Positions 28,530 to 57,785 of a DNA stretch of 64,000 nt are shown one piece after another. The DNA comes from Phorcus lineatus (taxonomy: Eukaryota; Mollusca; Gastropoda; Trochida; Trochidae). The stretch lies in assembly GCA_921293015.1 (NCBI GenBank), contig OV121087.1, forward strand, positions 3,856,501 through 3,920,500. The letters run 5' to 3'. Under the pieces are notes generated by a model. It did not search any database and was not told the DNA's origin. It saw nothing but the letters and a program-made list of their open reading frames with translations. The position numbers and the translations under genes are program-made. How positions within the stretch are numbered: position 1 is the stretch's first letter; each line of letters opens with the position of its first letter.

Positions 28530-28704
28530 GTAAGTAAATATGACAAACGGTTGTGTAACGTTATCATTGTAACCAATAGAGTTACCAACATTTAATCGAT
28601 ATCTCATAGCTTTTATAGTTTTATACAAATGTAGATAGAGATTACACCGTGGAATGCGTTCATTTGTCGGATTTCCAGATTGGGGTTTTAATTCAGCCAT
28701 TTCG

Positions 28705-30890: not shown

Positions 30891-30945
30891 ATAATTAAAA
30901 AAGTTTGAATCTCTCCACCATATTAATCTTAGTTTAAACAGATGC

Positions 30946-33969: not shown

Positions 33970-34294
33970 GATGAAAATGTGTACAGATTCCTGATGAAGC
34001 CAATATGGTGAATCGATGACCATTTATAAAATAAACTGTAGAGAAATAAATGATATTCAGAACAAATGTCTCTTTTTTTGGTGGTTGATTCAAGATCCCG
34101 TTTTTAAAAAAAAGTAAAATCGGGTAAGGACAAGTTTCACAAATGTCAAAAGTGAATAACTTAAAATGCATTAGTATAGAAGTCATATATGTTTCATTAG
34201 TAATGAACTATGTGTGTACAAGTAAAATAAAGTATCATTCAGCAAAACGAGCGAGCGAGTAACATGATAATTCAGTTATTCAGATTGTGATAAA

Positions 34295-34830: not shown

Positions 34831-35925
34831 ATTGGGCATTTAAGAACCTACAGTCGACTTTCATAAAATTGAGGTCAAAACATTACTTGCAAACAAGTTT
34901 TCTTTGTCCAAACCTCTGTCATTTACTTGTTAGTGTGGATTTTTTGCAGTCCACATGAATCACATCTTGCTTTAATAGTTACTTTTACGAACTCCCGAAC
35001 AAGAGCAATGCTACTATACAAAGTAAAGGATATCCGCAAGTGATTGATATGACAGATACGAGTTACAGCATTTCTGTAGAAGCCATCTCTATTGCACTCT
35101 GTTCACTTTACTGGAAAACACACCTTTTAAGACATTTAACGTTTTTTAATGTCTTTAACTTGACGTGAAACACGTCAATACACGCCTCTTAGTTTGTTTT
35201 ACGGCGTCCCAAGTGGTTTTGAACAGTTGCCTTTCTCTTGCAACAGTATTATTTTTTTATCATGTTGAAAATGAGGGGAGTCTTTTCCACGAGCGTCATG
35301 TGACTCTACTCTACTGTAAAACACATTTGTAGATGTAGACAATCAATGTTTCTGTAAAGTTATTCTAAGAGTGATTTTAGGAATAAAATTATATTTCATA
35401 TGTTCATGAAAAAAATCCCCTTTGACATTAAAATATGACTTGTTCATACTATGTGGGTGAAATAACCTTATTATATGTCCATGTTCAAAATAATAGTGTC
35501 GCTAAATGTGTGCACATAATGATGTTATGATAAACATGTACTTAACCGTTTTGATCTTGAGAGTGGATCCATTAGTTGAATCCGTCAGATAATTGATTGA
35601 GTTACGGCTGAGTTCGTTCCCATTACGACCTACAATATGGTATGAAGGCTTTATCTGCATGCGACTACATTAACATGGTAGTTATGATTCTTATATATCA
35701 TTATAATCATCTGCTTTCATAATCTGTCATACTGAAGCAGCTAAAACAATGAGTAAGTAATAATGGGAGAGTAATTCGTTTCACGATCAATAAAAATCTA
35801 ACATGCATGCCCAAGTTATACATAACTAAATGTTTCCGACTGAGATTGTGAATAAATGAAGACAGCATCTCATGCTTATGGAAAACTCTAGTATCCACCT
35901 TTTTTATTTGTATTCATGATCTTTT

Positions 35926-36195
35926 ACAACCACTGCTAAAACAACCAAATATGTTTTCATAATAACTATCTGAGAGTGTAAATACATATCATGAACATAT
36001 ATTAGATAAAAGGTTTAAAATTGTGTTAACCTGGTTATTATAGTATTGTCAAAGTTATATATATTGATTTTGTAAAGCAGTGTAATCGTACTATTGTTAA
36101 AAGTGACTCTTTACTTTCGTCACATACTGTTACTGAAGTAAAAATATAACGCACTGTTTCTTGTAGCGCTTTCGGTAAGAGCTTATGCAGTAAGA
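35926..36195 (+). repeat. 270-bp tandem duplication inside unit A, copy 1
   Basis: Copy 1 starts ACAACCACTGCTAAAACAAC and ends GCTTATGCAGTAAG. Copy 2 (36196-36485) starts ACAACCACTCCTAACACAAC and ends the same way. The inner segment GTAATCGTACTATTGTTAAA is identical, so this duplication is much younger than the large units. Confidence 0.85.
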
Positions 36196-36485
36196 ACAAC
36201 CACTCCTAACACAACCAAATATGCTTTTCATAATTACTATCTGAAAGTGTAAATAAATGTATATATATTGAAAATATATTAGATTTCTTGTTTAAAATTG
36301 TGTTAACCTGGTTATTGTAGTATCGTCAAAGTTCATTTTTACAATTTATGAATTGATTTTGTAAAGCAGTGTAATCGTACTATTGTTAAAAGTGACTCTT
36401 TACTTTCGTCACATACTGTTATTGAAGTTAATATATAATGCATTGTTTCTTGTAGCGAATTCCGTAAAAGCTTATGCAGTAAGCA
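36196..36485 (+). repeat. 270-bp tandem duplication inside unit A, copy 2
   Basis: Second copy, slightly longer because of a GTATATATATTG insertion and an extra TTTACAATTTATGAATTG stretch. The counterparts in units B and C are single. Confidence 0.85.
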
Positions 36486-39400
36486 GAATAAAACTTAGTC
36501 TGACATTATGACATAGGTCTGTCATTGTGCTGCATTTCTTAAAAATTAATGTTCATGTTTTCTTCTACTTATAGATACTATTGGAAGTATAAGATTTTGA
36601 TGAAGTGAGTGAATATACAATACAATATTTCAAGGTATAATGTTTCATGGACAGTATGGAGTTTTAAGCAGAATCCATATAGGTAATTACTCTACAATGA
36701 TTCCGTAACATCAACAAGAAACAAGATACAGAATTGCTATTATTGGAAGTTATTTTGAGGTTAACAAACGATCTTATTTTCCTACTTAACTAAGCAGACA
36801 TCTGTCAAAACAAAAAAACGATTGTGGTATATGTCAAGGACTTTATTTATCGCACAGAATAATTGTTTAAAAGTGAAAAAAAATATAATATTGATTATTA
36901 CAGTGATATTAAGATTGTTTATTGAAGCACCTTTTTGTACTGAATGTCAGAACCTGAAATTGAAGTAACTACTTTTTGAAAAGAATTTAAAGTCACATGT
37001 ATTTCAATGTTTTTTTCATGTTTTAGTGTCATGGAAAAGTGTTTCAAGAGTCTTACAATCTCTAGTATAATTTCCCTAAGGGTCTTAATTTTGTCATTTT
37101 CAAGAGTGAAGAGCGAGATAATTAAGCGATTGTTAAAAAAATTCAAGTTTTGTAAACATTAATGATTGATAGTAATGAAACAAGTATCGGACATACGCTA
37201 GTACACAACGTTATAATGATTATTGAGTAATACATTTATTCTAATGAATATAATCAGTCCGTATCTGACAACATCATGTTGGTCCTGTCCTAACATCCTC
37301 ATGGAATGCTAACAAAAGGAAAGCAAAGTACACATTGAGGAAAATGTTAAGATCACTATCTAATTATCAAACATTTCAGAAGTATAACCTACAGGTTTAT
37401 GTTCGAGTAATCTTAAAACTTGCAGGTCATTTGGTCTTTGAATTCATTTGAAATATGATCTCAATTCACTTTCCTGGACCTATTTGTTGATTAATATTTA
37501 AAGTCATTAGGATAGCAAAACATATTGCGATTGTGAATGAATGGCTTTTTAAAAAGCGGTAATCAACAATCTACCTGTCAAGGATATTTCTATTTCTTAG
37601 ATATTATCATTAAATAAACAAAGCAGTTAGAACTTTTAGTAGGTTTATTAGCTATAGTAATTTTTAAATCAGCAGCTTTTGTTTTTTTAAAACAAAATTA
37701 TTCTTGTTATTTCAAATCTTTGGGGATCTGATACACAAAATTTGGATATTGTTACTGTTAATTAATAAATTTTTTTATTGTCTTCTTTCTAAATCCACAT
37801 CTGCATTGAATATTAATTGTCGCAGTTACATTTGTTCTGATGATAGGACACGGTAGTTATTACCATTGTCAACGAAAGGTGAGGTAAGAACGGAACTATA
37901 CGGAACCTCGGGTGAATTATTCAACTGAAGTTAACAGTGTACATTTTAGTTAACGTTCTTCTGGAAATCATACTACACATTCTATACTGAACATTTTCAG
38001 ACCCTCCTTTGGCTTCAAAATCTCCTCAAATGGACGATTTTCTGTTTCTGTTTTCTGTTCCCCATGATCCATATAAGGCACAACGAAGACTTTTTAAAAG
38101 AAACTTAGCTTAACATTGAAATTCCTCTTATCATCCCTTACAGTATCTGAGGAATATCTCTTGAGCATTTTCAGCCCCAACAGTTTGAAGTTTTGTTCAT
38201 TAAAAGCAAGTAATTAGGTTGAATAAGAAACTGCATGACGGATTATTGATAGAACATTTTAATCAACTGTCTCCACAGGTAGCATGTGTTTGCAACGATA
38301 AATTGATGCATATTTATTATTGAACTCTTTTGTAACTAGTGAACTGGTGTAATTCCAATAGCTAATTGATCATATATTAACTATAAATGTATTTCTTAAA
38401 TGTAAAATGCGTTTTAGAAAACTTAATGACGATCATGTAAATGTTAATGATAAAGAATCAGAATAAGGTAAGATAACAGTGGTAATTTTTATATCCCCTT
38501 GAATATTGTTTTGCCCAATACAATGGTCACAAACGCATTTATAATCTATATGTGAAGGAGAATTCTACTTAAAGTACTTTTTTAAAAGAAAACATATTAA
38601 AGAGTTAAAAACCTGATCCAGTAAGAAAGAAAAATGAAAATATACAATCAATGTCATAATTGTGAATGATTAGCCATTGAAACGTGCCTTTTTCAAGAAA
38701 TGTCTTGAGACTTCTTTATCTAAATCACAAATTGGCAAAGCAATCAGATCTTGTCTCTTACATCTTACAGTCATTGTGTAAGCCTCCTGAGGTATGTATA
38801 TTTAAAACTACTGCAATGCTTTGTAGCCAAGGAAATAATTTTCATTTATTTCAGAAACTTTTTAATTGATAACTGATGAATCTCATTAATCCTTGCGTTT
38901 TAAGTATTGAGGCGATCCGAGGTTTATTTGTTGTTATTCCCACACTTTGTATGTGGATATGTTATTGTTGCATGAATAAATCTCAATGTTGATATTTTCA
39001 TTTGCTGCCTCCAGGAATATATTAGAAAGTAATGAACAATTAAAAGACCTTTCAATGTTTCTGCTTTAGATTAATTAGAATTTCTCACGAATATTCAAAA
39101 ATCTATTACCAAATTTATTCAGTTATCATTCTTCATTTTCAACAACAAATATTTCTAGCTCAAATAGATTATATGTTTACATTCAATGTTGCATGATGAC
39201 AATATTTGAAATGTTTTGGATTAAAATAAAATCAAAAGTCATTGTAAAAGCTGATCACTAATGTCTCTTCAACCTTTGATGAATGTTTCAGTACTGTAAC
39301 GTTCAAAATAATCAGATCACATGTCCATATATATGACAAAGTAGTCACTAGTTAAAATCCACTTCATATATTAGGGTGTTTTAATTTTAAAGCATCATAG

Positions 39401-40094
39401 CAGAGCAAATATAGAATGTATAAAAATATGTATCTTACATTCCCATTTAAACAATATGATAGGACAAAAACGCTGAAAACAAATGTCATTATAAACTGGC
39501 GGCTCATCCATATTGATCGTATTACCGTGTTAAAGAATGCAGGATATCTTAAATATTAGGGTGTAAATTGAAAAATTTAGATAGAAATTCTAAGATCCAA
39601 GTAGAACGATATTTCTAAAAAAGTTTTCATTCAGTCGATTCTAGCTTACAAAATGTTTGTGAGATTATCCAGTGTTAACTGACGAAAGGTATCTTCATTT
39701 ACTCGTCATATTACTTGCAGAAGTTGATGTCTTGAAACAGTTTCTTACAACAAGAAGTTTATTAGGAGTGAGACGTTTGTAAAATGTATGATACTCATGT
39801 TTGCTGAAATATTTGATTACAATACTTGCTCAGTATAATGTCTCTACAGTGCAATAAGATATTTCTACTAAGGTGAATGACCTTATTGTCATAACTAACC
39901 ATTTCACTTCTTTGGTATAGGTCTCAAGTTAATGTAATAAAGGGCCGAGATAAGTTTTCAAATATGACAATTATAAATAACGTGAAAGAGTTTAGAAAAA
40001 GAAATCACTGACATATGGAATTCTGTTTCGTTACTTTCATAGCCACAGTTGTGTTGCAGGCTTTCTTTTTCATTACTACTAGCATATATATGTA

Positions 40095-40501
40095 CAGTGG
40101 AAACCTGATAAGTAAAATCACTAGGGACCCGTCAAAATATTATACTTGTCAGGTATTTTACTTATCCAAACATATGGACACCTGGATATGATAACCATAT
40201 ATATACAACGATATATACTGCAAAATATAAAAGAACAAATGTATGAAATGACAGGACTTATTGCATGAATGTTGCCAGGTTGATCCAGTTGTACAGTGTA
40301 CCTGTGGGGATATTGAATTTCTTTGCAATGTCTGATTTAGGCAGACCATTTTCAACTTCAATATGAGCACAAAATTTGTCCTCTATCGATTTTGCGACAA
40401 GTTTATGTTTACCTTTGTGGAGGAATTTGCCAAGACCAAGGAAAAGTGTTTACTCATCCATTTTTTTAGTTAAGAGGTCTTTACTTAAGCTGTTTCCACT
40501 G
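40095..40501 (-). mobile_element. pogo/Tigger-type DNA transposon remnant
   Basis: The ends are inverted repeats, CAGTGGAAACCTGATAAGTAA and its partner finishing GCTGTTTCCACTG, each flanked by TA (40093-40094 and 40502-40503). TA is the target duplication of the Tc1/mariner superfamily. The minus strand between about 40430 and 40258 encodes KLVAKSIEDKFCAHIEVENG, LPKSDIAKKFNIPTGTLYNW and so on to a stop. That is the N-terminal CENP-B/pogo helix-turn-helix with its usual S.IAK.F.IP..T...W signature. At 407 bp, and without a DDE domain, it is an internally deleted non-autonomous copy. The ATG at the 5' side is out of frame with the helix-turn-helix. Confidence 0.85.
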
Positions 40502-40899
40502 TATGTACAAAGATATATGTGACCTGCTCTTGAAACTGGCGTTACCCCACAAATGATCTCACCCCGGCCGTCCCTGTTCGAGTTAGTAACATGAGTTCAG
40601 AGACTTGTGGTGCCTCTTGGGTAAGTCATGGAGTTGCTCTATCCACAATGTAGATGTAGTAGAGACGCTGGCCGTCTGAATATGAACTATTGGCACTTGA
40701 TAAGTGACTGTTCTCTTAGATCAGGGGAATATGTAAAAAGACCACTTGAGCATGGGGTGTTCACAGAAAATGCTGCTTTTAATTGTTATTTATTACATGC
40801 TTTGTACATATGTTTTCCAACTTGTGTCATGATTGTGTTATGTTGTCGTTTTGTAATCTTATGATTTGCGATATCAATATGATTTCTTATCTAGTCTGT

Positions 40900-41100
40900 A
40901 GTAAATTATAATACTATTTGTCATTTCAACAAATGTCGCCCTGATCATGAGACCCAGTACGAAGGAGACAATTCCCTTCCTTGTCATTATGTGCCTTGTA
41001 TTGTTCATTGACTACAGAAAGTCCTCAGACCCGAAATTGACAAGGTATCGAAATTACACTCTCAGCACAATAAACACTATGTTCAAGAAAGAGTGAAATT
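40900..41100 (+). pseudogene. Unit B counterpart of the cysteine-rich frame
   Basis: Aligns with 50145-50395: ATATCAATATGATTTCTTATCTAG is shared, then AGGAGACAATTCCCTTCC with TGTCATTATGTGCCTTGTATTG against TGTAATGATGTGGCTTGTAATG. The C-x4-C spacing survives, but a stop follows the signal-like start (TTATAA in place of the TTAGTA of unit C), and another stop sits where the third cysteine should be. A pseudogene relative to unit C, if unit C is coding. Confidence 0.5.
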
Positions 41101-41777
41101 AGCTGTCATCTGATTGTCATTGAATTACATCTCCTCACGTTGAGAAATGTTTTGTGCTTGTTGAAAAGATCTTAGATTTTAAAACCACATTTCGTTACGA
41201 ATTGAAACTTTTGAACAGAGTTGAGTAGTAATGTTTCTGAGATATTGAATTTGATACCACAATCTTCTTCACTCATGATGCTAAGGAACCACAACTGTGA
41301 GAAGGAGATTCGTGACAAGTGTTTTTAAATGCTAACGTGCCTTGCCAACTAGCATGTGCTCAAAATGATTGAAGTGTTTGTTACACGGAAAGACAATATT
41401 TGGATCATGTTATTGTTTTGAACATTTCGCAAGGCAACAGAATGTTTTATTTTTATTCTTTGTAAGCAGTGAACATATGTACAATCATTTGATATTTTAT
41501 CAATTTTATTCTCTTATTACCAGAATATTCCATACTAAAAAACATGAATAGAAAACATTTCTTTAAGATCGTATACCTGTCCATTTGAATATTGCACAAG
41601 TGCATGAATTACTTAATCTTTCCTCGGGATGTTGAGTTGACCGGATATTTCAGAGTGCATTGGCTTTATTTTTATTTCTCAATTTATTTTTTAAAGAAAC
41701 CCCATGAAAGTTTACAATATATATTTGGTCATTTTCTTACATTCTCTGACAAGTTTCTCTTTCCTGTTGATACGCAG

Positions 41778-41834
41778 GACGAAGTCATGGTCTCTAAGGA
41801 ATCGTCATCAAACTCACTATTTAGGTTGATATGA
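41778..41834 (+). CDS. Candidate short terminal exon, unit B
   Basis: A strong acceptor (CTCTTTCCTGTTGATACGCAG) precedes DEVMVSKESSSNSLFRLI and a TGA at 41832-41834. In unit C the corresponding sequence (51163-51230) keeps the frame with a clean three-base deletion (QDEV to QEV) and mostly serine-conserving changes (SSSSLF), as expected of coding sequence. In C a stop lies upstream in the same frame, so either splicing occurs at the acceptor or C is dead. Function unknown. Confidence 0.4.
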   Translation, partial: DEVMVSKESSSNSLFRLI

Positions 41835-42557
41835 CAAACAAAAAATAATTTGCCATGATATTATCAAGATTACAACGTGGCCATCTAGTTGCACTCCTGA
41901 AGAATGATTACCAGCATGAAAGGTTGAAGGATTAAGATAACGCAAGACTACCAATTGAAAAAGGTTTAAATATCGTGGGCATTAATTGAGGTTGAATAAT
42001 ATGAGACTATCATTGACCTTCAGACGAAAGTGCTGTAGTTCTTTGAGATGGATGAGTCTGAACGTGTTTGATATACATCATCATAAAGCGGTTACAAAGT
42101 GGAGCTACTGCGTGGTTGATATGAAGTGATATTGACAAGCATTATCTACATAATACTTTTGAAGCATCCATTTAAGACCCAAAAGTGCTTCATTGAGAAC
42201 ACATATGACAATGTAATGACGTTGATGACATAATAATACTCTGATGTTTCACTACTGGTTATGTACAAGCTTTGACCTCACTGCCGAAGAAACCATGTGC
42301 CAGCTTTCTTGACTTGACAATCATTTTCAAAAGATACCTGTCAGATTAAAGAATGATACCTCATCTTTTGATCTTCTTGAACATGGATTGATTAAAGTAA
42401 CAAGTATTCCGCTTTCAATCAAAAGACCTGTATAACCATCATGTACTTCAACAACAAATTCAAATGTGAATAAGCCTTTGATTGTGGATTCAAAAACTTT
42501 TATATCATGAGACTTCAAATGTCGATTTCTATGGCGTTTGAATTATTTGAAAGGTCA

Positions 42558-42728
42558 CCATTGGCCACTTTTCTGAATTTCAATACATATATCCCCTGAA
42601 TTCTTGTCATCACATTTTGTGACAATCTACATTGAGATAAAACAATAAGACCACTTGTCGTTGTTAACTTTGACCTGAATTTCAAAGTCCTCACAACACT
42701 TACAACACACTGTGGCACCACTATCAAA
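42558..42728 (-). pseudogene. Conserved minus-strand exon, unit B copy with stop
   Basis: After an acceptor-like AACAACCTAG on the minus strand the frame reads FDSGATV, CEDFEIQVKVNN, KWSYCFISM, then TAG (42627-42629), then IVTKCDDKNSGDICIEI and on to about 42558. The unit C copy (52043-51882) aligns as FESGATM, FEDLEIKVIVNN, NWSHCFLTM, FVTKYED. The matches are dominated by conservative changes (D/E, F/L, Q/K, Y/H, I/L, S/T), a pattern typical of coding sequence. This implies that a minus-strand gene was present in the ancestral unit. Family not recognised. Note the opposite orientation to the other exon candidates of the array. Confidence 0.5.
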
Positions 42729-43529
42729 CTAGGTTGTTTATGTGTTTTCTTGAGTCCAATCAATTCCAATCAGTGAGAATTTAAAACGTTCAATACATTG
42801 TTTGATCGAATCGGAACTATGCCCTTTCTTGCTATAGATGAGAGCACATATTTTCAAAGTCATTACATTTTACTGTGGAAGAATATGAAACATTTTCTTG
42901 TTATGTTTTAAAATCTTACAGCGTAATGTTAACTGCCTCCTGTTTTGGTATTATTGCTTCATCTACAAGCAATATAAGTTATGGTGTCATTCAGAAAAAC
43001 TTATGCTTCGTTAAGTAGAAAGATGGCTCTTTTTATCACATTTACCTCAAGTTATTGGTTTAGATAGACAAACAATGTGTCTTAGTCCACCAACCGCCTT
43101 TCTGTGACAGCTGTATATGTTGAAAATGTATAATGTTGAAAATGTGGGATCGTTTGAACGTAGTAAATTAAATGTAAATTAGCCATCAATGTAGCCAATC
43201 AATTTCTCTGTTTTTGGAACAATTTTGTTTGGAACATAAGTTTGTGATAAAACGCCCCTTTGATATAAAAAAAACGTGACCAGTTCATATCATGTGGGTG
43301 AAATAACGTCATTATATCTCGATGTTAAAAATGACAGTGTGCCTAAATGTGTGCACAAAACGATGTTATAATAAGCATGTACTTAACTGTTTTGATCTTG
43401 ACATTGGATCCATTAGTTGAGTCCGTCAGATAATTGATTGCGTTACCGCTAAGTTCGTTCTCATTACGACCTACAATATGGTATGAAGGCTTTAACTGCA
43501 TTAACATATCTAGCTATGATTCTTAACAA

Positions 43530-43665
43530 AATATATAGAGGATATTTGACATTTCTCGTCGAGTGGATATCTCATCGAGTAAAGTAGAACTTTATATTTT
43601 AACGAGTGGCGTAGCCACGAGTGTAAATATGTGATTTTGACCATTCGAAATATAATAAATCAGTA
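43530..43665. mobile_element. MITE-like insertion in unit B only
   Basis: Between GCTATGATTCTTAACAAAATAT and CTTTCATAATTTCTTATAAGG, unit B has about 130 extra bases including CTCGTCGAGTGGATATCTCA and GAGTGGCGTAGCCACGAGTG (a short hairpin with a GTA loop). At the matching places in unit A (35690) and unit C (53300) the insertion is absent. Ends and target duplication are not resolved. It resembles the CTCG-rich interior of the 6233-6373 element. Confidence 0.55.
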
Positions 43666-44751
43666 TATAGAACTCCTTTCATAATTTCTTATAAGGCAGC
43701 AGCTACAACAATGAAAAAGTTGTAATGAACTACTAATATACTATTCACTATGAATAAGAATTTACTTTTTATGCCCAAAGTTTCAACAACTAAACATTCC
43801 TAAATGAGGTTTTAATAATAATAGCAATAATTCATGCACTTGGAAAAACCTTACATTGAATCTTTTTCATTTGTATCCAAGATTATGTTTAAGATTAAGT
43901 AGAAAACATATAACAAAATGTTCACAGCTGTAAAATATGTTTTCAAAGACTCAACTCTGACATTTTCACATCGCCAAAAGAGCTTAGTTGGATTATTCTG
44001 ACTAACAGACTCAGACCGTATATGTCTCAGAAAACGTTCGAATTCATTAATATTCAAAACTATCGGATATAGGGTTTAAAATTGTGTTATTTTGGTGTTA
44101 TCATGGTTTATTTTTACGATTTATACTTTGATTTATTTGTAAAGCAGTGTAATTATACAACTGTTCAAAATGAAAAATATAATTGTCAAAATTATAGACT
44201 CACTTTTACTATTTACTTAACGATATATTAGACTGTACCTAAAAATCGATAATGTCAAATGATAAAGGTCTTTGTCCGTAAATACCCCTTTCTTCCTTCT
44301 ATGACGATCTCATTTAAAATATTCTTAAGTAGAGATGCAATTTAGTCAACTGTATATCTATTATAATCTATTTTTGACATTATTAGATTATGTCAATCAC
44401 CAATGACTATCATTGAATCGTTTTTATTTCAGCTGATAAATCTATAATCAACAAAAAGTAACTTACCCAATAGACAATCATAATGAAAGCAAGTAATTCT
44501 TATTGTTCCTTGAAAAAAACTTTATCAAAAAACTTTATTAACGGAAATGAGCAAAGTAAAGGGGAATTATTATCTATCATCCATTTTCAAATGATCAACA
44601 TCAGATTGCTAAATAGCAAATGAAGGTTGAACTTTTTATTGTCATAATGCGTTTCACACACTATTGAAACGGAAGACAAACATATTTCCAGAATAAACAT
44701 AACCAATGAAATATCTAATTCCGGAATAACCAATAAAATATTTATTTACAG

Positions 44752-44811
44752 TTAGGCGAAAGTATACAGCTGTTTCCTGATGAAAAGACACAAGGCGTGT
44801 CAAACGTGTAG
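44752..44811 (+). pseudogene. Short terminal exon or relic, unit B
   Basis: A good acceptor (ATTTATTTACAG) is followed in phase 0 by LGESIQLFPDEKTQGVSNV and a TAG at 44809-44811. Unit C has an acceptor at the matching place and, also in phase 0, SKAKFKLFLDDEQQGFSHT and on to a stop 11 codons later. The shared core LF.D...QG.S and the shared splice phase support a real exon. The B copy is either truncated by the TAG or simply shorter. Confidence 0.45.
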
Positions 44812-46149
44812 TGATAAGTTTCAACATTGTTTCAACTACAAGGGATTATTAATGTAACTTTTCCACCTTAAGCTTATTATCGTGTGTAATGATTCTGTCT
44901 AAGATGTGTCTAAGATAGAAAAATAAAGGTCAACCCTCAAAGGCTTATGTAGCTGTCAACTTTTCCCCACACGTCTTCTTCAGGTCAATATTTTCAGCAC
45001 AGTGACAGGTAATCATAATTGTAATTTCTTCAGGATCTTGCTGATGTCTTCTCATTTAACATAATTTTAACAATTATATGAGAAAAGATTTAAAAGAAAA
45101 AGGATGAAAATGGATAATGAACGTAACTTGTCCATAAAAGTGTCATTTAAAATATGATATTATTGCAACAAAGAAGGTGATATGTCTTTGAAATGTGATG
45201 TTTTCATTTTTAAAACTTTGTTTGCAGAAACGTATTTGAAATATGTTATGTTAATCTTGTAATACATTTCTTTCAATTAATGAAATTATCATGACATTTC
45301 TAATAAAATAATTTGAATTTGTTTTTTTATATAAAACAATTATTTATATAATCCTATTTAAACGTCCTTTATCCTTAACATGGCCAGAAGGTAGGAAGAA
45401 TTAGCTTAATTTTTCTTAAATGATAAGCAGACTGATACCCTCTCCTGATACATTCAAATAGTAAGTTAATTGTTTAGTGATAAAAACTGACTTTAATGTA
45501 TTTTGATGTAAACTTAAAACCTACATGCACTAGCACAGGCGTGTATATATTGCCATTTCAAGTAACACTGATTATGTATGCCTCAATCGAAAACTAGTGA
45601 ACGTAATCTTAACTTTCGTCACATGCTGTTACTGAAGCAAAAATCTTATACATACCTTCTAAAAGCGACTTCCTGAAGAGCGTATGCTTAGGTGAGCATA
45701 AAGAATGGTCTCTCTATAACATCTATCCAAGTATCGTTTGAGACCTTATCAATAATTTGTCTACCTCCTCTCTTCAGCCTATGGAGTTTTATTCATGGGC
45801 TATCTGGCCATATAAGTTCTGTATCCATTCATACGTTTCTTTATCAACTTCATTCTTAACCAGTGCTATTTTACTGAAGTAGGTTTGTCTAAAATGATTT
45901 AAGCTATTCAGTCACTTCTGAAATGTACATGTAAATTGTCTCTACAATTTGATCTCCTTAAAACATAGGACGTGTCTTCTTGTTTTCACGATTAGCTCCA
46001 ATCTGAAATACCATTTGCCTAATAGTATCTACAATAATACATGGATGAAAAAGGTTATGAATCGATGTGTGTGTGTGGTTGTTAAATGTCTCAATTGATA
46101 CTGCCCCAAATATGCTGTTACATTTTGATGATGCCTTCACCATTTTGAG

Positions 46150-46230
46150 CTTCATAATGAATCTATTACTTGAACCATCAGATAATTAATTGTTTTATGG
46201 TGAAGCTTGTTCCATAAAATGACCTCCAGA
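46150..46230 (+). repeat. Extra core-block fragment in unit B
   Basis: GAATCTATTACTTGAACCATCAGATAATTAATTG matches GGATCCATTAGTTGAATCCGTCAGATAATTGATTG at 35567. It is a second, more diverged copy of the core block within the same unit, pointing to nested duplication before the large units formed. Confidence 0.55.
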
Positions 46231-47444
46231 TGGGCAAACTATTTTGAACTAATTAGTTTACATGATTGTTGTCATTATTGTGAACGGATAATCACACCAA
46301 AAGTGCTTTCATAGTTAGTCATTGCGCTGCAATATTGTTTTCAGATGTTTTGTTTGAAAATAGTAAGTGTCTACATAATATAATCTATCTTGGTTGTCAT
46401 TGTTTCACAACTTTTTCTTGATTTTCACTTTAGAACGATTCCAGATAAGTTTCTAGATTGTTATTTCGTAACTTAGGTAATGCATGTTTTGTATGGTATA
46501 CAAGATCAATAAAATCAATTACAACGAAAAAGATTGGTGAGGATGTTTTCGCGACTGTCATATTCTCAAAACATTAATTTGCATAAAATGGTTTCATTGT
46601 AAATAGTCAGCACGTCAGTAGAGTCCCATTTCAATCTTCCTGACTTGTAATTGACAATGAAATGTTGCCAATGCATTTGTAATCATTTAAATGCTGCAAG
46701 TCGTAAAACAGATTTTTTTCGAGATCTTAGTTGTGCAGATATACAGGTATACAAGTTCAATGTACCGTAGGACAATTTAAATAGCTCAAAATAAATCTAA
46801 AGAATACTTGTATGTTATTACTCTACAAAGTTTCCTGAATAAAACCAGAAAGAAAAAAGAGTTGCTTGCAAGTTATTTGAGATGCACAAACATTTAGTTA
46901 TCTAATTCAATTAATCAAAACAATAATTTAGTGTATATTTGATTAAACCGGTATAATTCCCTCAGTTAAATGAACACATAGCAGCTAATATTGTTTTTCT
47001 TTTAATGTTAAATGCGTTTAAGAAAAGATACCTTATTGGTAATCATGTACAGATTAAACATCATTGGAATAACCTTATATTCAATGTATGTCATTTTGTA
47101 GGCTTCCCGAAATGGATTACTAAAATAGAGAATTTAAAGAGGAAATCTTTGACTTTATTATTGAGGCATTGATCTGAGGTTTAATTAATGTCACATTGTT
47201 CCTATATCAGCCTTTTCCCAACAGTCGATGACTTAAATAAGTAGGTTTAATATTGGCACATAACATAGCTACCCGTTGACATTTTCAAAGAATAAACTTT
47301 TAAGTAATGCACATTGCCATTAACAGTACTTTAGATATGTCAGTTTCAATTTCCGAATGACTTAAGCTTTAAGAAGATTTGAATAATGCGTGCCTGACAT
47401 ATGGAAGTAATATTCCTTCATTTTACAACAACAATTACTTCTAG

Positions 47445-47447
<3 letters not shown>

Positions 47448-47479
<32 letters not shown>

Positions 47480-47740
47480 AAAGTTCACCAATTTGAAATT
47501 GATCTTCAGCTCCCAGGCGTTATATATTGAAAAATACGAAGTCAGAAGTAAAAACAATCCATTTTAATGGCTAGCGCTTTCAGCTCAACGAGCCTCTTCA
47601 GGCCATACATATAACGGATAATGCATTTAGGGTTAGGGTTAGGTTAACCCTAACCTTATATGTATGGCCTGAAGAGGCTCGTTGAGCTGAAAGCGCTAGC
47701 CATTAAAATGGATTGTTTTTACTTCTGACTTCGTATTTTT

Positions 47741-47805
<65 letters not shown>
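47448..47805. mobile_element. Foldback element with telomere-like loop, flanked by (TA)n
   Basis: Two 94-base arms, 47521-47614 and 47656-47749, are near-perfect inverted repeats (CGAAGTCAGAAGTAAAAACA, GGCTAGCGCTTTCAGCTC, CTCTTCAGGCC). The 41-base loop contains TTAGGGTTAGGGTTAGG followed by TTAACCCTAACC, that is, telomere-type repeats in both orientations. Pure TA/AT tracts lie outside (47448-47475 and 47743-47805). A related, shorter element in the opposite orientation occurs at 57786-57996. The matching position in unit A (39160) has no insertion. No coding capacity. Confidence 0.85.
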
Positions 47806-47809
<4 letters not shown>

Positions 47810-48514
47810 CTATGGTTACAACCAATGTATCATTAATGATCCCTATTCAATATGCAGATGAAAACATTTGGAGAGCTTTGGAATATAACAAAACCAAAGC
47901 ACATAGTACAAGATGAACAGTAATGTGTCTTCAACATTTAATTGATTTTTGCAACATTATAACAGTTAAATTGATTAAGATTGACAAATTCCTGTCATTA
48001 TGACCCAAAACTGTTACAATATTCAACAAATATATGTAGTTTATTTCTTCAGTGCTCTCTCTTGCTGCCTCATAAAACAAAACTTATTTTTGAAATTGGT
48101 AAATAATATCAACGATTCATTCATTGAAAGAAATACGTTTTTCGTGAGATTTATGTTTGCTGGGTGAAATATAATCTTTCTATATCGCAATTTAATCTTT
48201 TAATAAAGACTGTGACCTCATTGCCACAACTGTCCGATTCACTTGTGTGGTGTAGGTATATAGTTCATTTGTTACAAGTAATTAAGGTTAAAGTAAACTT
48301 TTTGCAAATGTAATTTTGTAATTTGAAAGAGATTAGCAAATAAACCAATTACATATGACAATTTGTTTCATAAGCATTGTGCAATCTGTATATCAAAGTA
48401 AAATAAAGTCATTTTAACAAGATACTTTATGTGAAGGATATATATAGTGTTACTGCAAAACTTATATAAGCTACAACGAATAAGCTAGTTGTAAAAAATA
48501 GTTTACCATTGTCC

Positions 48515-49150
48515 AAAATTGAGTGGACAAATCAAGAAGAAAATCGATCGGGAGGTTGAGAGAACAGATGGATTCAAATAGAAAGTGAGAGAAAGACAGC
48601 ATGATTCTCGATTTTGGTCTGGCCTCTATCCGTCGACCTGTCAGGGCAACAGAAGTATCAAAACCACCGCAGACAAAATAAAATGAAAGTGAGAGAAAGA
48701 CAGTGGGTCTCTGTATGACTCGATTATGATCGGGCTTCTTTCCTGCGACCCGTCCAGGGTCATTGAAGCATCAAAACCACCAAAGCAAGATAAGATGAGT
48801 CAATTGGTGGAAGCTCGAACGAAAGATACACACTGCAAGGCATTGCTATAAATGTCAATGCATCTCAGTTACGATTCTCCCGCTTTTTATGACATATGAC
48901 ATCTTTCTGATAACCAATTACCCCTTAGGATGGTATGGTTATGTCCTTTTTTAGGCATAGTCATTTTGCACTCTGGATATGGATTTCTTTATGACATGTT
49001 CACGTATGGCAAATAGTATGGAATATGATCAGCCCAATTCACCAACATGACGCCCTGCAAGTACAAAATTCATAATCATCTTGGAAAAGGAATTTGTAAC
49101 TGAACCGAATACAAAAACAAAATTATCATCTTAATGTCTTCAATGTTCTA
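48515..49150 (+). repeat. Large-array block, copy 2, with internal 104-bp duplication
   Basis: Second copy of the 34295-34830 block. Inside it GAAAGTGAGAGAAAGACAG starts at 48581 and again at 48685, giving a 104-base tandem duplication that includes the TCCGTCGACCTGTC and CATCAAAACCACC landmarks. The duplication is absent from the 34.3-kb copy. Confidence 0.8.
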
Positions 49151-49154
49151 GGTG

Positions 49155-49463
49155 ATGCGAGGGGTATAATACCACTTTCAATAGCATATCACTTAGCCAT
49201 ATCACAATGGCTAGTTATATTGCACGGAGAAAGCCCGCAACACCCATGTTGCTGTGCATTGCGGCCACATATGCGAGCATCGGCTACAATTAGCGAACCA
49301 TGGGTGATTCTGTACTGATATTCGATTAGGAATAGCCAAACCTTTGTAGGTGTAGAACAGTTCCCTGCTGCAAACAACGTTGCCGAGGCCCTGGCAGGAA
49401 TTGAACCCCGAGATTCCTTATCTTAAGCCTAACGCGCTAACAACAGCGCTATCCTGCCCCCTC
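49155..49463 (-). mobile_element. SINE with tRNA-like head, minus orientation
   Basis: Read on the minus strand it starts GGGGGCAGGATAGCGCTGTT (A box), has B box GGGGTTCAATTCC, then a body with the CAGGGAACTGTTC, ATGCACAGCAACATGGGTG and AGTGATATGCTATTGAAAG segments. It ends in the region equivalent to the 3' end of the 33.3-kb copy. About 309 bases, probably full length. The left flank still matches unit A near 34810 (ATTATCATCTTA / TATTTTCATCTTA), so it likely inserted after duplication. The right flank is not confirmed. Confidence 0.75.
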
Positions 49464-49849
49464 TTTATTCTTATTTACATGTCGTTGTAGATGTGTGCTT
49501 TCTCTTCCTTCAAGACATGAAAATACAATAATTAGTAGGATAAACTTATTTTGATATCATTTCATTGACCTAAAAACATTTTTGTAAAAACATAAGCAAA
49601 GTATAACCTATAAGATAATGCGTGTCAATACAATGGAACAAGAAAGATTACGAACGTTACTTCATATGATTTGATTGCAAGGGGTTTATTTTATTCAGGG
49701 AGTAGTACTGTACTTTCGAATTGTAATTAGGTCTGCACATTAATGGCTTGGCAAGTGAGCAAGTATTGTGAATCTATCTTTGGTAATCAACACTGGTGAA
49801 TAAATGTCTCGCTAATCTGAGAATGTGAAGAATTGATCCCCTGTTCTAC
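49464..49849. other. Spacer, no gene recognised
   Basis: AT-rich sequence between the SINE and the start of unit C. No coding signal. Confidence 0.4.
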
Positions 49850-50150
49850 ATACTACCATGAGTTGAGAGACTTGTGGTGCCCCTCGGGTAAGTGACGAGG
49901 TTCAAAATGTGCAATGTACACAAAGGAGATGTAGTAGAGACGCTGGTAGTCTGAATGTGAACTATGAGCACTTGACAAGTGATTGCTTGTAAACACCTGA
50001 GGGATTGAATGTACTCTTAGATCAAGAGAATAAGTTATTATAAATGTGCACAGAAAATGCGTGCTTAGAATAAGCCGTTATAGTAATTGTTATCATAATA
50101 TGTTTTTACAAATGTGCTATAGTCTGTGTCTGAAGATTCACTATATCAAT

Positions 50151-50387
50151 ATGATTTCTTATCTAGTTAGCAGTAACAATTTAGTATTATTTGCTCTTGC
50201 TACAATTGTTGCACAGAGAACTAATTTCAACGGAGACAATTTCTTTTCATGTAATGATGTGGCTTGTAATGTTCAGTGTGCGGATGCTTCGTTTATCAAA
50301 GGAAGTTATTGTAAATCGTCTCATAAAATCAAAGTATTTGTAGGTAACACTCATGGATCAATAACTACTATGTACAAGAAAGGATGA
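50151..50387 (+). CDS. Candidate small cysteine-rich protein, unit C
   Basis: From ATG 50151 the frame runs 78 codons to TGA. A hydrophobic stretch NLVLFALATIVAQ near residues 9-21 could serve as a signal or anchor segment. It is followed by FFSCNDVACNVQC and KGSYCKSSHKIK. The spacing C-x4-C-x3-C-x10-C with G-S-Y-C recalls the first half of cysteine-stabilised alpha-beta peptides such as invertebrate defensins (CxxxC, then GxC), but the final CxC pair is absent (valines occupy the place). An alternative model is an internal exon from the acceptor-like TTGTTGCACAG at 50216 to a donor-like GTAG|GTAACA near 50343. The unit B counterpart is broken. Function not established; a defensin-like role is speculation. 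Confidence 0.4.
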   Translation: MISYLVSSNNLVLFALATIVAQRTNFNGDNFFSCNDVACNVQCADASFIKGSYCKSSHKIKVFVGNTHGSITTMYKKG

Positions 50388-50634
50388 AACAATCTGATAT
50401 TTAATTGTCAAGAAAATACCATTTCCTCACATTGAGGAATATTCTGTGCTTGTTGAAAAGGACTGAATATTTTAAAAGCAATTCATGTTATGGTTTATTT
50501 GAAAATATTGATCACTGTAAAATTGTAATGTTTGTTACCTAAATATAAGACCAACATTTCATGCTTATGAAATATCAAACTAGACTCTGCTTCACTCGTG
50601 ATACTCAGAAATTGCAATTACACAACTACGAGTA

Positions 50635-50925
50635 GGGGGGGGGGGGGGGTCGGATAGCGCAGTGGTTGATGTGTTAAGCTTTGGATCAAGAGGTTTTGGG
50701 TTCAAATACAGCTGGGTTCTCAGGAACTGTGTCTGCAGTAGAAAACTGTTCAACATGTTGTAAGGTTTGGTCACTATGCTACACTGAATGTCAGCACCAA
50801 TGGTTTGCTAGTTCCAACCGGAATGCATAGCCCAAATAATGTTGCAACGCTTCTCCCTGGCATAATACTAGCACCTGTGATAAAAGTGAAAATATCTTGA
50901 AAGCAGCTAAACCCCAAGTCTTATC
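50635..50925 (+). mobile_element. SINE with tRNA-like head, private to unit C
   Basis: It begins with 15 consecutive Gs (50635-50649), then A box GGATAGCGCAGTGGTTGATG and B box GGGTTCAAATAC. The body matches the 49.2-kb SINE in reverse (GAAAACTGTTCAACATG, TGCATAGC, AAAGTGAAAATATCTTGAAA, GCAGCTAAACCCC). In unit B the site is uninterrupted (CACAACTGTGAGAAGGAGATTC at 41291), while C has ACAACTACGAGTA, the element, then CCAGTAGGAGATTC. The short repeat AGTA at both edges may be the target duplication. Confidence 0.8.
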
Positions 50926-51881
50926 ACATCACCTCACCAGTAGGAGATTCATGACATGAGTGTTAAAAAAATGATATATGCTGACAACTAACGTTTAATC
51001 GAAATAATAGAATTGTTTTTGCCATTTAAGAACAACATTTGGTTCATGTTGTAAATATTGAACAGTATATGTATTTTTCAAGGTATTATTAAAGAAAACC
51101 CATGAAAGTTAAAGATATCTTTGGTTATTTTCTTACATGATCTGACAAATGTCTGTTTCCCGTTGATGCGCAAGAAGTTATGGTCTCTAAGGAATTGTCT
51201 TCAAGCTCACTTTTTTGGTTGAAATGACAAAAAATAAAATTTGCCATGATATTTTAAGGTTACGATGTGATACCTTTCAATTATACTTGACGCCCATATA
51301 TAGAGAACTTTCAAACATGCAGCTTCTCACACAATACAGTGCAGCCTCTCTCTTAGTTACACTCGTAAAAAGCATGAAGGATGAAGGATATGCGAGACAA
51401 CCAATTTAAAATATTGTTGGCATTAAATTAAGTTGAATTATAAAAGACTATCATTGACCTTGATGATATCGTATTGCTGGTGACGCACAAGGCTTTGACC
51501 CAATTGCTGAAGAAACCTTGAGGCAGGCTTAATGATCAGACAATTTTTAAAAAAAAATACTAATACAATTATAGAATCGATTTTACTGACACCTCATCCT
51601 TTTATCTATTGATATCACTATAACGCCATGAGTTTATGTAACTTACATGTAATCGGCTTCAGTCAAATGACATGTATCATTGTCATGTACTTCAACAAAA
51701 ATCTTATATATGCAAATACCGTTAACAGGTTATTTTGAAAACTTCACTTTCAATGAGGTATGTGATGAAATATTCCATTATATGACATCATATTTGTGGA
51801 AATCCTTATTCGAAAAGTTTGACATAAACGAGTCAATTTCGGTGACATATGACTTATGGTCAAGTCATCATGTCACTTAAA

Positions 51882-52043
51882 TCAAAATGTTGGTACAAAT
51901 ATGCCCTGAATTGCTCTAATGTCTTCATATTTTGTGACAAATGGCATTGTTAGAAAACAATGAGACCAGTTGTTGTTATTAACTATGACCTTAATTTCAA
52001 GGTCCTCAAAATACTTTCCAGTCATTGTGGCACCACTCTCAAA
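51882..52043 (-). CDS. Conserved minus-strand exon candidate, unit C
   Basis: Open counterpart of the 42558-42728 relic: FESGATMTGKYFEDLEIKV, then VNNNNWSHCFLTM, FVTKYEDIRAIQ and a stop. An AG precedes the first codon on the minus strand (CTAACTACCAAG). After KYED the frame diverges from the unit B copy because of an indel, so the C-terminal part is probably out of frame and this copy may be dead too. No family recognised. One tryptophan and one cysteine are conserved between the two copies. Confidence 0.4.
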   Translation of the reverse strand, partial: FESGATMTGKYFEDLEIKVIVNNNNWSHCFLTMPFVTKYEDIRAIQGIFVPTF

Positions 52044-54328
52044 CTTGGTAGTTAGAATGATTTGAAGACTTAACATTAGGGAACGTTTCAGTATTTTGTT
52101 TTCGAAAATATGAAAAATGGATTTTGTGAAGAAATAATAATAATAACTGCCTCCTTTATTGATTTTAATACTACCGCTAGATGCATGAAATCCAATGTCT
52201 TCATTTTGATTAACAGCAGGAACATGAGACTCTTTATCACATCTACTTCATACTACATTCTAAAGTGGCAAACAATTTGTTTGTCTTCGCACTTCTGCCC
52301 TGGACTTGTTATGCTGTTTTTTTCAGCTATAAGTAGTAACATTTATAAACTCACAAACAAAAGAAACATACTTCTAAGTTAAGCATTTCTTATGCATTTG
52401 TTTTCTTACACAAGCGAGCATGAATAAGGTAGTTACTAAAGTTTTCATTATTGTCATCAGAATAAAAATTTTCTAAAAATGACCCCGAGATCATATTGGC
52501 TGACGGAATTGTTTTCTATTTTGTCTTTTCGTTCACATAGAATTGCCATGCTTAATCTGTGACCCATTAAGGTGTTATGAATAGCTTGGGCTACAACCTG
52601 CGCAAAAGAAAACCATGAAATTATCTTTTTCATCGTGCAAGAATACAAAGACCGTTCACTTCACAAAAGCTGTGTAAATATTCTGATATTTGACTTGGGA
52701 AAGAGAATTGCTAACTCAGAAAGTGACGGTTTATCTGTCCTTTGTGAATTATGGCGATAATTTCCTCTTTAAAGCTCGTATTTTTTTTACATTGATCCGC
52801 TCATAATAGATAAACCTTACTCCTCGCATTTTGGTAAACTATTCTAATCTTATACCATGTGAAAAGGTCGTGAATTTAATTAAAATACTTTAGTGTATAA
52901 ACCGTCATGTTAATTAATTCTGATATTTACAATCGCTGGAGCCAAATTGTCAATGTATCTATCAGTCATCCTAAATGTTTTAAGGAAAAAGCTGATATTT
53001 CAAAAATTAAAACCTCTCCTTTGATATCAAAATGTGTCTAGATCATATTATGTAGGTGAAATAACGTTATTCCATGTCACATGTTCAAAAAGGATTTTGC
53101 TAAAATAGCGAATGCAATGTTGTCATTATAAAGGTGTACTTAACCGTTTTAATCTTGAGAGTGGATCCATGATGAATACGTCAGATAGTTAATCGAGTTA
53201 CAGCTGAGTTCGTTCCCATTAGACATACAATAAGGTACGCAGATTTTAACTGCTTTGGACTACACTAACTTATCTAGCTATGATTCTTCACAAAATATAT
53301 TAGTTACTGCTAACAGTATCAACTAACTGGTATCATAATATATCATATTTCAGCAGCTGCAGAAATGAATAAGCATTGGTATTAATTATCATATAAATGG
53401 AAACAATGTAACATTATATCAAAAGTATTTATACCTTAATGTTTCCCACAATGTATCCTGTTCATGAGAAACCTTAATTTTGACATTTTGTATTTGGATC
53501 CATGATCTTTAACAACCACTCGTAACACTTTATATAGGACCTAATTCTGAAATTTTGTAAACAACGAAACAGCTTTACAGTCTCAGGCTTACTGATAACT
53601 AAAATTCATAAAACAGTATGAGTCGTTGATGTTTGAATTATATGAAGGTGTAAATATATACTTTGAACAGATATTGGATATAAAGTTTAAAATGGTGGAA
53701 ATCTGGTTCTTGCAGTCAATATTATCATAGTTCATTTTCAAAATCTGTAGGTTAATTAATTTATAAAGCAGGGTTATCATACTTATTGTAAAAATGACTG
53801 AAAGTACTTTAGTCTGTTGCAAATGAATGCTAACACTTATACTTATATACCGTATAAAAGTCTATTCCTAAATCGCTTTTGTCGAGTGAAAAAGTTCTTC
53901 CCTGAAACACCATTTTCTTTTAATAGTACCATCTCAATTCAAATAGTTAAAGCACAAAACAAGTAAGTCAACTGACAGGTAATTGTGACAAAGAGGAGTC
54001 ATACCCACGTCTCTTTTCTGCCTTACTTTGCTTTGAATGTCAATTAAAACATATATAAGTATTAGGGTTGTTATTTGTATCCATTCGGTTATTTTACCAC
54101 CAGGGAATATCAGTGAGTCTCTGCTTAATTTCTATTCAGCTGATAAATCTCATATCATAGTTAGAGTATCCAAACTACTTAACAATGACTATAAAAGCTA
54201 TATCAGTTTTCTTTCTTATTATTCATTTTTATTGTCACGATGCACGCCACAGACTTCTGGACGAAATACTAATATATCTCGAGTATAATTATAACTAATA
54301 CAATATCCATTTCTGTTTTTTATACCAG

Positions 54329-54421
54329 AGTAAAGCGAAATTTAAACTTTTCCTTGACGATGAGCAACAAGGCTTTTCACATACGAAGATGTCAAGAATC
54401 AATATTGGTGTTCACTATTAA
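54329..54421 (+). CDS. Candidate terminal exon, unit C
   Basis: A pyrimidine-rich acceptor (ATTTCTGTTTTTTATACCAG) leads in phase 0 into SKAKFKLFLDDEQQGFSHT and a stop at 54419-54421, 30 codons in all. It is paralogous to 44752-44811 in unit B (LF.D...QG.S core, same phase). Immediately after the stop the sequence AATAATGTCTAAACTCCAAG resembles the 3' module of the 26-kb unit (AACAATGTCTAAATTCCAAG). The large units and the small units therefore appear to end in the same 3' region. Confidence 0.45.
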   Translation, partial: SKAKFKLFLDDEQQGFSHTKMSRINIGVHY

Positions 54422-56770
54422 TAATGTCTAAACTCCAAGAGATAAGTAAGTCGAAATTTCACCTTAAGCAGATTATGTTGTGTTATGTGTGCGACATAAA
54501 AAGGTCAATCCTCAATGGCTTATGTGTTTGTCAACATGTTACCAGACGTCTTCCTTAGGTCGACACCTCCAGCGCAGACCTTTTTGACTTCTTCCTATTT
54601 AATTGAGCTGATGTGATTCAACAAGAAAATGACGAAAATGAATAATGAAAATAACTTGTCTAGAAATGTGCCGTTTAGAATATAAGAATAATCAACAAGA
54701 TACGAGGAATTTCGGAGTATCTGTCCCAAGTGGTTTATTGTGATAATTTCAGAGCCATAGTTGTTTATCATTTTTCTTACCCGAGACAAATTTAGGATAT
54801 TAACGTTACTCATTGAAAATACATTCGCAAAGTTAACCTCGGACATTGTATTCATATGCGACGAACAACGATTATAAAATGGTCTTCATTTGAGAAATAC
54901 AATGCAGTTCAAGTAATGTGTATCGTGTATATGAATCATAAGTTATAAAAGACGCTTGGGTTAGAATATTTGATTATTGCTAAAGGTATAAAGTATTCTT
55001 TTTTGATAAAAATTAGATCATTTTAAATTCAACTGTGTTTGCCAAAACGGATTTAAAGTATCTCAAATATTGTCATATATTTCAATTCATATCTAGGAAA
55101 TTGTTATGACATTTTTAATGAGACATTTGGAATATAAAGTTGGTTTGATATATAATCAATTATTTGAACAACCACATTATTCTTTTGACACATTACTGTG
55201 TCCTAAAATATTGTACTATTGTCAGAAGGTCGGTAAACTTGGCCCGCTTTTTCTTAATTGATAAGTAAACTGATATTCCCTCTCCTCATAAAATTAAATG
55301 GTCAGGAAATTGTTCAATGATAAATAAAATATTGCGATATCTTGTGCTGAAACTCAAAAACTTATATCTAGAAGCGTGTATATAATGCCATTGTAAACGA
55401 TTTGTATTATACCTCCACCGAAAGCTAGTGAATGTAATCTATAACTTCATCAATACTTTTATTGAAGCACAAATTTGCTTCCAATAGCGACTTCCTCAAG
55501 AACTTATGCTTCAGTAAGCAGGAAGATGTGTCTCCTTACAACATCTACTTCAAGGTATCGTAGACCTGCCAAACAATTTGTTTTGTCCTCACTTTTGCCT
55601 GTGGCTTGTTAATACACAGCTTTGATGAATAAGCCCATAGCACTTCAGTCGTTCACTAGTGCAACTATACTGAAGTTGATTTGCAAGTAATTTGTCTTTT
55701 AAAGTTTAAGCTGTTCGGTTTTTCAGTGAAATGTATACTTTCTCCAGAACATAACTGTGCGGCAATGTTAATTTTTTCTTTTACTTCTACATACTATTTA
55801 AGCTTGAAGTATTGGATTTCCTAACAATGAAGAGAAAGTAACACTATTTTGAAGTCGTAATGTTCTATGTACAGTACAGCAATTTAAACAACTCAAAATA
55901 AATGTAAACAATCCTTTAACAAAGGTTAAATCTTTAAGGAAAATCTTACAATCTCTAGGCTAATTTCAATTACGGACTTAATTTCGTGATGTGCAAAATG
56001 AATTTCTATTACAGTGTTCAGCAAATCAGATACACGCTTAACAGTTGTTATTTATTTCTTATCAACTAAACAAAGGAGTCAGAACCTTTTAGTAGATTAA
56101 TTAGTTATAGTGAAATTCTTGTTATTTTGAATCCTTTCGGATCTGCGACATAGCAACTGAATACCGTAAGGTTATGATAATATGAGTACAGATTTGTTGC
56201 TTAAAGGTTAGGCATGAAAACCATGATTCTTGTTTTAAAATCTACATCTATAACGGAAATCCAGTGTCGGACATAAGCATATTACCATTTCGAATGAAAC
56301 TTCAGTCGGGATCCAAAGAAGAAGATAACCTGTTTTTTCAATCGTTCCACACAATTCATTGAAAGCTTAACTAAGTCTTTTCGTGTGGCACGTGTTTTCA
56401 AATTCTAAGTTTTAACAGAGAATTATTTTTTTCCACATCCCTCAACAGTATCTGGAGAATTGTTTGAGCGTTTTGTGCATTTTCAACCTCAACACTTTGA
56501 TGCATTTTTCATGAAAAGCAAATAAATTAGGTTTAATAAGAAACAGCATGGCGTATAATTGAACATAACAGTTTAATCAACTGTCTCTACAGGTAGCATG
56601 TACTCTTGTTCGCATCTATAAATTAATGTATACATTTGATTTACTCTTTTGTTATTTTAGAACTGGTATAATTCCTGAAGCTAATTAAACATCTACCAGC
56701 TATTATTGTATTTATTTTAATGTTTAAAGATATATTCTAACATGGTTACCACAATCAATTTTGGAGTGAT

Positions 56771-57785
56771 TATTTCGATAATAATCACCTCTAAATATTT
56801 ACGACCGATTCACATTCATACGCGCACGTTTACAAACTCCATTCGCTGATCTTACTGTTGTCATCGCCTTAGCAAAATGAATTTTGAATAAATTCTATAC
56901 AGACATTTAGACTACCGTATTTTTTAAAATGAAATTTAGAAGATAAATCCATTCTATGGTATATATTTTGTCGAAGTAGTTTATTTTTTTTATCACTAAA
57001 TTTAATTTCAAACCGAGCTCGCTTCTTACCGTAACGCGAAGTAATAGCGATTCGTCAAGTGACCAGAGGGGACATACGTTATTCTTCAACTTCCCTTCCC
57101 TTTCCCCCTCTCATTCATAGGTGACCACATTTCCAGACAGTGTATTCAACCATGACAAACTGTAAAGCTTTCTTGACCGTTTATTCAATCAGTTCACATC
57201 TTGCGTGAGAAGTTAGCGCTAGCAGTAAACAATGCAACTTCTTTTAGAGTAACGTCCCTTGATTTGGTCAGTCCTTGTCGGTATATTAGGGGTGATAGGT
57301 GTCCTATGTATTTACGTGAAAAACGTAACTCTGACGGGATAAAAAAAATCTGTCTTTTGTTGATTTTATCCTCTATGAAATAAATACTTAAGGGTTTTAT
57401 TTAAAACCTGCTGGTTTATGTTTTGATATTTTTTTTTATAATTGAAGCGTGTTTTTTGAAAATGAAGCAAGCTCGGTTTGAAATTAAATCTAGGGGTGAA
57501 AAATGCACGACATACAACCCCAAAATAAAAAAACAGAAGGGATTTATCTCCTAACTGAAAATCATGTCAATTTTAGGATTCATTGGAATAAGGTGAAATA
57601 TGCTCCAATTCCACTAAGCTTCTTAGTGCTATGTGCAGTCGTAACCCTTAAATGTTACTGATGTAGCGGAACAAGATAAGCTTTTATAAGGTGAAAATGA
57701 CCCATTTGACAGTAATGGCCGTTACAAATGAACAAAACGAGTGAGTAAGTAAGAAGAGATTAACAATATTGAATAATTGAAAAAA
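56771..57785. other. No gene recognised
   Basis: Outside the recognisable array. Open frames at 56907-57089 (minus) and 57201-57383 (plus) have no supporting signals. Confidence 0.4.

Follow-up and report, generated by a model that had tools for sequence, protein, structure and literature searches.

The stretch of DNA analysed here (the window) comprises 64,000 nucleotides of the genome of the gastropod Phorcus lineatus, at positions 3856501-3920500 of contig OV121087.1 (C12) in an assembly of 957.8 Mb. The middle part of the window carries three adjacent units, A, B and C, which probably represent the product of serial tandem duplication of non-coding DNA that has long since decayed, like many other cases in the regions that we sampled. 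The units follow one another on the same strand, keep the same order of blocks and have diverged into aligned islands that are about 57-86% identical. Unless a contig is named, all positions are those of the window.

The initial annotation had described large, diverged units in tandem that correspond to one another block by block, and had predicted parallel diagonals in a self-alignment of the window, and these diagonals were observed. All seven pairs of B and C coordinates on which it had relied lay inside same-strand alignments with their offsets kept (E 8e-11 to 3e-72). The collinear B-C chain consisted of 15 high-scoring segment pairs (HSPs) with 3,832 aligned columns and a mean identity of 67%. 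The final two of these HSPs (181 columns) belong to a dispersed element resembling a miniature inverted-repeat transposable element (MITE), and without this shared element the chain retained 13 HSPs, 3,651 columns and 66.9% identity. The third unit, A, was likewise borne out, with 7 chained HSPs to B and 11 to C. No HSP was found for A-B, A-C or B-C when the partner was reversed (not complemented) as a control. In 50 Markov-1 shuffles of C, a total of 11 HSPs and at most two per shuffle were obtained at E<=0.01, versus 20 with the real C, 5 of which were located in the MITE-like element. The copies are thus adjacent, same-strand and collinear, as in a tandem segmental duplication, and the unit length of 6-9 kb exceeds the 1 kb that is the minimum for this class. 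The similarity threshold of 75-90% used in surveys, which is a convention and no part of the mechanism, lies above the B-C mean of 67%.

The heads of B and C pair at 39834/48170 and the tails of A and B at 39181/47845, and a further tail-like piece was found ahead of unit A (32844/38765). These matching ends place B at about 39.8-48.1 kb and C at about 48.2-57 kb. The B and C of the initial annotation were therefore correctly recognised as tandem copies but were drawn out of phase with the duplication, the starts being at about 39.8 and 48.2 kb. Blocks at the head of A align with C at 34149/48326 (E 2e-4) and at 34296-34808/48508-49134; for the tail module, a copy in C was not detected. Within unit A, a 270-bp tandem pair occurs at 35926-36483 with 85% BLAST identity, and small-scale duplication seems to have continued once the large units had formed. 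A young tandem pair with a period of 237 bp and 96% likeness is present at 62929-63410.

Strand and location were then considered for the whole array. In the 10-90 kb region, 59 local pairs were separated by more than 1.5 kb once the places of short interspersed nuclear element (SINE)-like and MITE-like sequences in the units had been removed, and 58 of them were on the same strand, as expected of tandem duplication and unlike local transposon hopping. Genome-wide searches were performed with stretches of unit B as queries. For B 40450-43500, all 13 first-look candidates were scored and the matches were located at C12:3.891-3.909 Mb, except those of the first 68 bases. Both candidates obtained with B 43650-47440 were scored and lay at the locus, the three candidates for B 42700-43500 were the A, B and C copies, and for the block at 41667-41879 the whole-genome search gave its C partner as the sole partner. 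At the sensitivity of the search, the tested B stretches are thus restricted to the locus and not a high-copy repeat, apart from embedded dispersed pieces, which alone had copies elsewhere on either strand; the local origin proposed earlier, as opposed to one dispersed repeat, agrees with this result. The search with B 43650-47440 missed known local C partners with 57-72% identity, so equally diverged relatives may exist elsewhere in the genome.

Three modules of the units, n5, n7 and n10, were followed by iterated nhmmer over 264 kb, i.e., the window and 100 kb on each side. The numbers of copies were 8 for n5 (19.4-64.8 kb), 12 for n7 (31.8-79.0 kb) and 8 for n10 (18.6-54.5 kb); every copy was on the plus strand, and none was found beyond 18-80 kb. 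The repeat system therefore extends over about 18-79 kb, past both limits in the initial annotation. Pairwise BLAST supported older relatives of the units, for instance at 19444/35460 (E 1e-21) and 31866/55483 (E 7e-14). Sequence-only models built from all 8 copies of n5, 10 of the 12 copies of n7 (model R2) and 6 of the 8 copies of n10 (model R3) recovered their own members and one more known n10 copy, all other matches having E >1e-4. The older fragments before and after A-C would be earlier products of the same series. The coordinates of all features are listed in Table 1.

Table 1. Positions of the tandem units, their modules and relatives, further tandem pairs and embedded dispersed elements
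Feature	Position	Strand	Basis or remark
Tandem unit A (partial)	33900..39500	+	A-B and A-C chains; tail 39181/47845; start uncertain
Tandem unit B	39834..48100	+	B-C chain; head 39834/48170
Tandem unit C	48170..57000	+	B-C and A-C chains; right end uncertain
Well conserved B/C block	41667..41879, partner 51066-51269	+	81% BLAST identity
Older, more decayed relatives of unit modules	17925..32055	+	Iterated nhmmer, pairwise BLAST
Places of the older relatives	17.9, 18.6, 19.4, 23.5, 25.2, 26.2, 26.6, 28.2, 28.7, 30.8, 31.8 kb	+	
Module n5, A copy	35343..35942	+	Iterated nhmmer
Module n5, other copies	43206-43883, 52951-53528, 19444-19746, 25248-25355, 28187-28447, 46119-46331, 64524-64755	+	Last copy just beyond the window
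Module n7, B copy	45147..45927, partner 54961-55735	+	Parts at 12 places, 31.8-79.0 kb
Module n10, B copy	44750..44908, partner 54347-54490	+	Also at 18.6, 23.5, 26.2, 26.6, 28.7 and 30.8 kb
Old tandem pair beyond the window	86810-98852 / 100916-116437		Offset 15-18 kb; 8-block chain 86.8-94.8/100.9-110.2 kb, 4,013 bp
Old tandem pair beyond the window	134047-138481 / 139816-144408		Offset 6 kb; 9 blocks, 3,079 bp
MITE-like dispersed element in B	47448..47805		Outside the tandem signal; many 76-100% matches on other contigs, both strands
Second MITE-like dispersed element in B	43519..43638		85-91% matches on many contigs
SINE-like repeat	49149..49492 (+), 33340-33550 (+), 50644-50951 (-)		Also matched elsewhere in the flanks (200 kb), on both strands
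DNA-transposon remnant, CENP-B/pogo-like	40087..40449	-	Open reading frame 40261-40449 likely carries HTH_23/CENP-B_N
Dispersed piece	40450-40517		Genome-wide matches away from the locus

Similar chains were surveyed in 344 kb, comprising the 264 kb of C12 and 80 kb of a second contig, C5, chosen as a control by round number. Stretches with a further match inside the 344 kb, at another place or in reverse orientation, were removed, as was a satellite. The C12 region contained 42 same-strand local chains, 14 of which had two or more blocks (the A/B/C chains included), and the C5 region contained five, of which two had several blocks, with offsets of 17.6 and 9.5 kb. The 16 multi-block chains, which are not all independent, had Kimura two-parameter (K2P) distances of 0.20-0.42 and none was young; nearly identical chains amounted to two single short blocks of 454 and 109 bp. 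Two further old tandem pairs beyond the window (86810/100916 and 134047/139816) were 73-77% alike in their aligned parts. With such old tandem copies nearby, the A-C array looks like ordinary decayed duplication and not like a gene family. Some of the other chains on C12 and C5 may be transposon families, and one control region is too small for a genome-wide claim. A satellite-like array with offset steps of 52 bp and about 95% identity, at 110372-113536 beyond the window, adjoins another old tandem pair.

Several results weigh against decayed, neutral duplication, and they are set out here together with the alternatives. The raw strand counts differ between the two contigs: on C12, 134 plus and 10 minus pairs were counted, a figure of secondary weight as it includes the satellite at 110.4-113.5 kb, versus 45 plus and 74.5 minus pairs on C5, which shows no same-strand excess. 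Under a stricter filter, which by construction drops places with a minus-strand match, 130 plus pairs covered 19% of C12 and 10 plus pairs covered 5% of C5. The initial annotation had suggested a tandem gene family in birth-and-death turnover with small exon-like islands. In the form considered here, the family would encode proteins, its members would by now be mostly pseudogenes, and the better conserved islands would be exons. Families of this kind do form head-to-tail, diverged units in similar order, as seen here, and some islands contain open frames, for example 35505-35669 / 43346-43501 on the minus strand, a pair with 85% protein identity over 52 aa. However, the C copy of this frame has stops or frame breaks, as do many copies of other translated matches. 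Mismatches in 16 block pairs did not clearly favour any phase of three, as judged informally, and of the 120 gaps only 33 had a length divisible by three. A codon-substitution score was computed for 14 alignments with 100 column shuffles each; the lowest p was 0.01 and none was significant after correction for 14 tests. The p-values lean low, with five of the 14 at or below 0.09 (0.01, 0.04, 0.04, 0.07 and 0.09), so a weak coding trace may remain. At 33-58 kb, where 135 of the 150 longest among 429 open reading frames (ORFs) of at least 30 aa were submitted to Pfam, 16 families were matched. Four were helix-turn-helix (HTH) types with E between 1e-4 and 0.005, one was a TNP-like RNase H domain (E 0.01), and the other eleven, at E 0.029-0.096, were taken as chance. 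The matches of note were thus of transposase type, and no cellular gene domain of note was found among these ORFs. A second set of 125 ORFs from the rest of the window and pieces L013-L023 (114 of the 150 longest and 11 added by hand) yielded a match to HTH_48 (mariner); ten other families, at E 0.0009-0.048, were again taken as chance. There is no significant coding signal in the units, and these tests yielded no recognisable exon or pseudo-exon supported at the protein level, apart from the weak lean of the p-values. The gene-family claim was not upheld, and we regard it as quite unlikely.

A second alternative is that tandem non-coding modules, such as enhancers or a repeat-bearing long RNA, have been kept by selection, with n5, n7 and n10 as the functional parts. 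The n5 core (35397-35660), a region picked post hoc, has 183 of its 252 columns identical in all three units, against 167 of 356 columns outside it, and it exceeds its surroundings in likeness in all three pairwise comparisons; this likeness, together with the recurrence of each module in 8-12 same-strand copies, could be due to constraint. In six RNA-structure tests of the three modules, n7 forward stood out in one (z -5.9, p 0.005, with a null mean of about 0 and a small spread), and the pair counts of its 5-bp hairpin were above those of all slid versions. The n7 reverse test gave p 0.035 and the other four p 0.075-1.0. On the other side, the covariation of the hairpin was reached by 50 of 500 pair shuffles, neither a tRNA gene nor an Rfam family reaching its gathering score was detected in the window, and the four matches of a permissive Rfam scan at 17-64 kb were all under their gathering scores. 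The overall patchiness of identity also resembled that of other local alignments, with a dispersion of 1.58 for A/B/C (13 HSPs) versus 1.50 (82 HSPs) in a comparison group that may still include transposon pairs. Judging from the sequence, the units may well be neutral, possibly with a functional remnant, and selected modules appear unlikely as the main explanation. It is very unlikely that the blocks are fragments of an unrecognised, locally hopping transposon family. Remnants of transposable elements do occur in and near the units, and one A-C head block (34268-34485 / 48501-48819) is also similar to a site at -77 kb that adjoins an ORF resembling, by eye, an endonuclease of a long interspersed nuclear element (LINE). 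The first half of the A-C alignment 34296-34808/48508-49134 is similar to the -77 kb place and partly to one at -62 kb, and its second half (34486-34808) had no match at either place. The start of unit A is unsure because part of this head block belongs to a dispersed LINE-like piece, and the likeness to the -77 kb place reflects either a common old insertion or two independent ones. The same-strand bias, the order preserved over 8-9 kb and the lack, at the sensitivity of our search, of matches to the tested B blocks outside the locus argue against transposition of the units. This explanation was rejected for the units and accepted for the embedded SINE-, MITE-, LINE- and CENP-B/pogo-like pieces.

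The labels SINE-, MITE- and LINE-like are our own and are based on copy number and shape. The CENP-B/pogo-like remnant has an 80% DNA match of its 40087-40417 part at C12:15.19 Mb; the HTH_23/CENP-B_N match (E 1.2e-4) was found in one of the 135 ORFs, and its assignment to ORF 40261-40449 was made by eye. A candidate remnant of a mariner-type transposase lies at 3294-3569 on the minus strand (HTH_48, E 7e-4, under the curated cut-off). Elsewhere in the window, ORF 7572-7883 on the plus strand (MSMLTRAGTLVRK...) resembles a first coding exon in a GC-richer stretch, with a good 5' splice site (CAG|GTGAGT, GT at 7884) immediately after it; the ORF had no Pfam or PDB match, and a next exon was not found. 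From a resemblance of this ORF, we considered that the array might lie in intron 1 of a PDE8 gene. This idea was dropped because tblastn with a PDE8A-like sequence gave nothing beyond two chance-level matches in the 264 kb, and because on C12 PDEase_I was matched at 8.34 Mb, some 4.5 Mb from the array.

Under serial tandem duplication, the three units would have arisen by repeated same-strand, adjacent copying of non-coding DNA, through unequal crossing-over or through replication- or repair-based duplication. Substitutions, indels and transposon insertions would then have reduced the copies to the present islands, and the same process may have left the comparable old chains in the nearby chromosome and in the control on another contig. 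According to a genome survey (PMC13431229), which covers vertebrates and one starfish, vertebrate genomes favour tandem duplication (<1 Mb apart) over interspersed duplication. The units resemble these tandem segmental duplications in being nearby duplicates of kilobase size. However, the caller used there assumes >75% similarity, with a 10% error as the standard cut-off, and here, once the MITE-like element is left out, 11 of the 13 B-C blocks stay below 75%. Repair-mediated proximal duplications (PMC2671141) also copy existing DNA locally, in pieces of up to 619 bp, whereas the units here measure 6-9 kb and are serial. Birth-and-death gene families share the head-to-tail diverged units, and differ in that no gene was found in the units here. 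In a thin test by titles and the openings of abstracts, we saw no account of an old non-coding layer of tandem duplication in molluscs among the papers listed from an open-access library.

It is tentatively possible, and on balance doubtful, that much of the non-coding DNA of this genome was built by a wave of kilobase-scale tandem segmental duplication of approximately a single age. In such a wave, the duplicates would by now fall below the identity thresholds of standard duplication surveys and would be counted as unique sequence. The sample lacks large copies that are young; if real, this absence would suggest a former burst that could be dated, which the narrow range of divergence may reflect as well. 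If the pattern of the 344 kb holds genome-wide, a gene-family call such as the one made for this locus would be a typical false alarm raised by a background of old duplications, and transposons alone would not account for the intergenic DNA of this animal, a large and uncounted part of which would stem from old tandem duplication.

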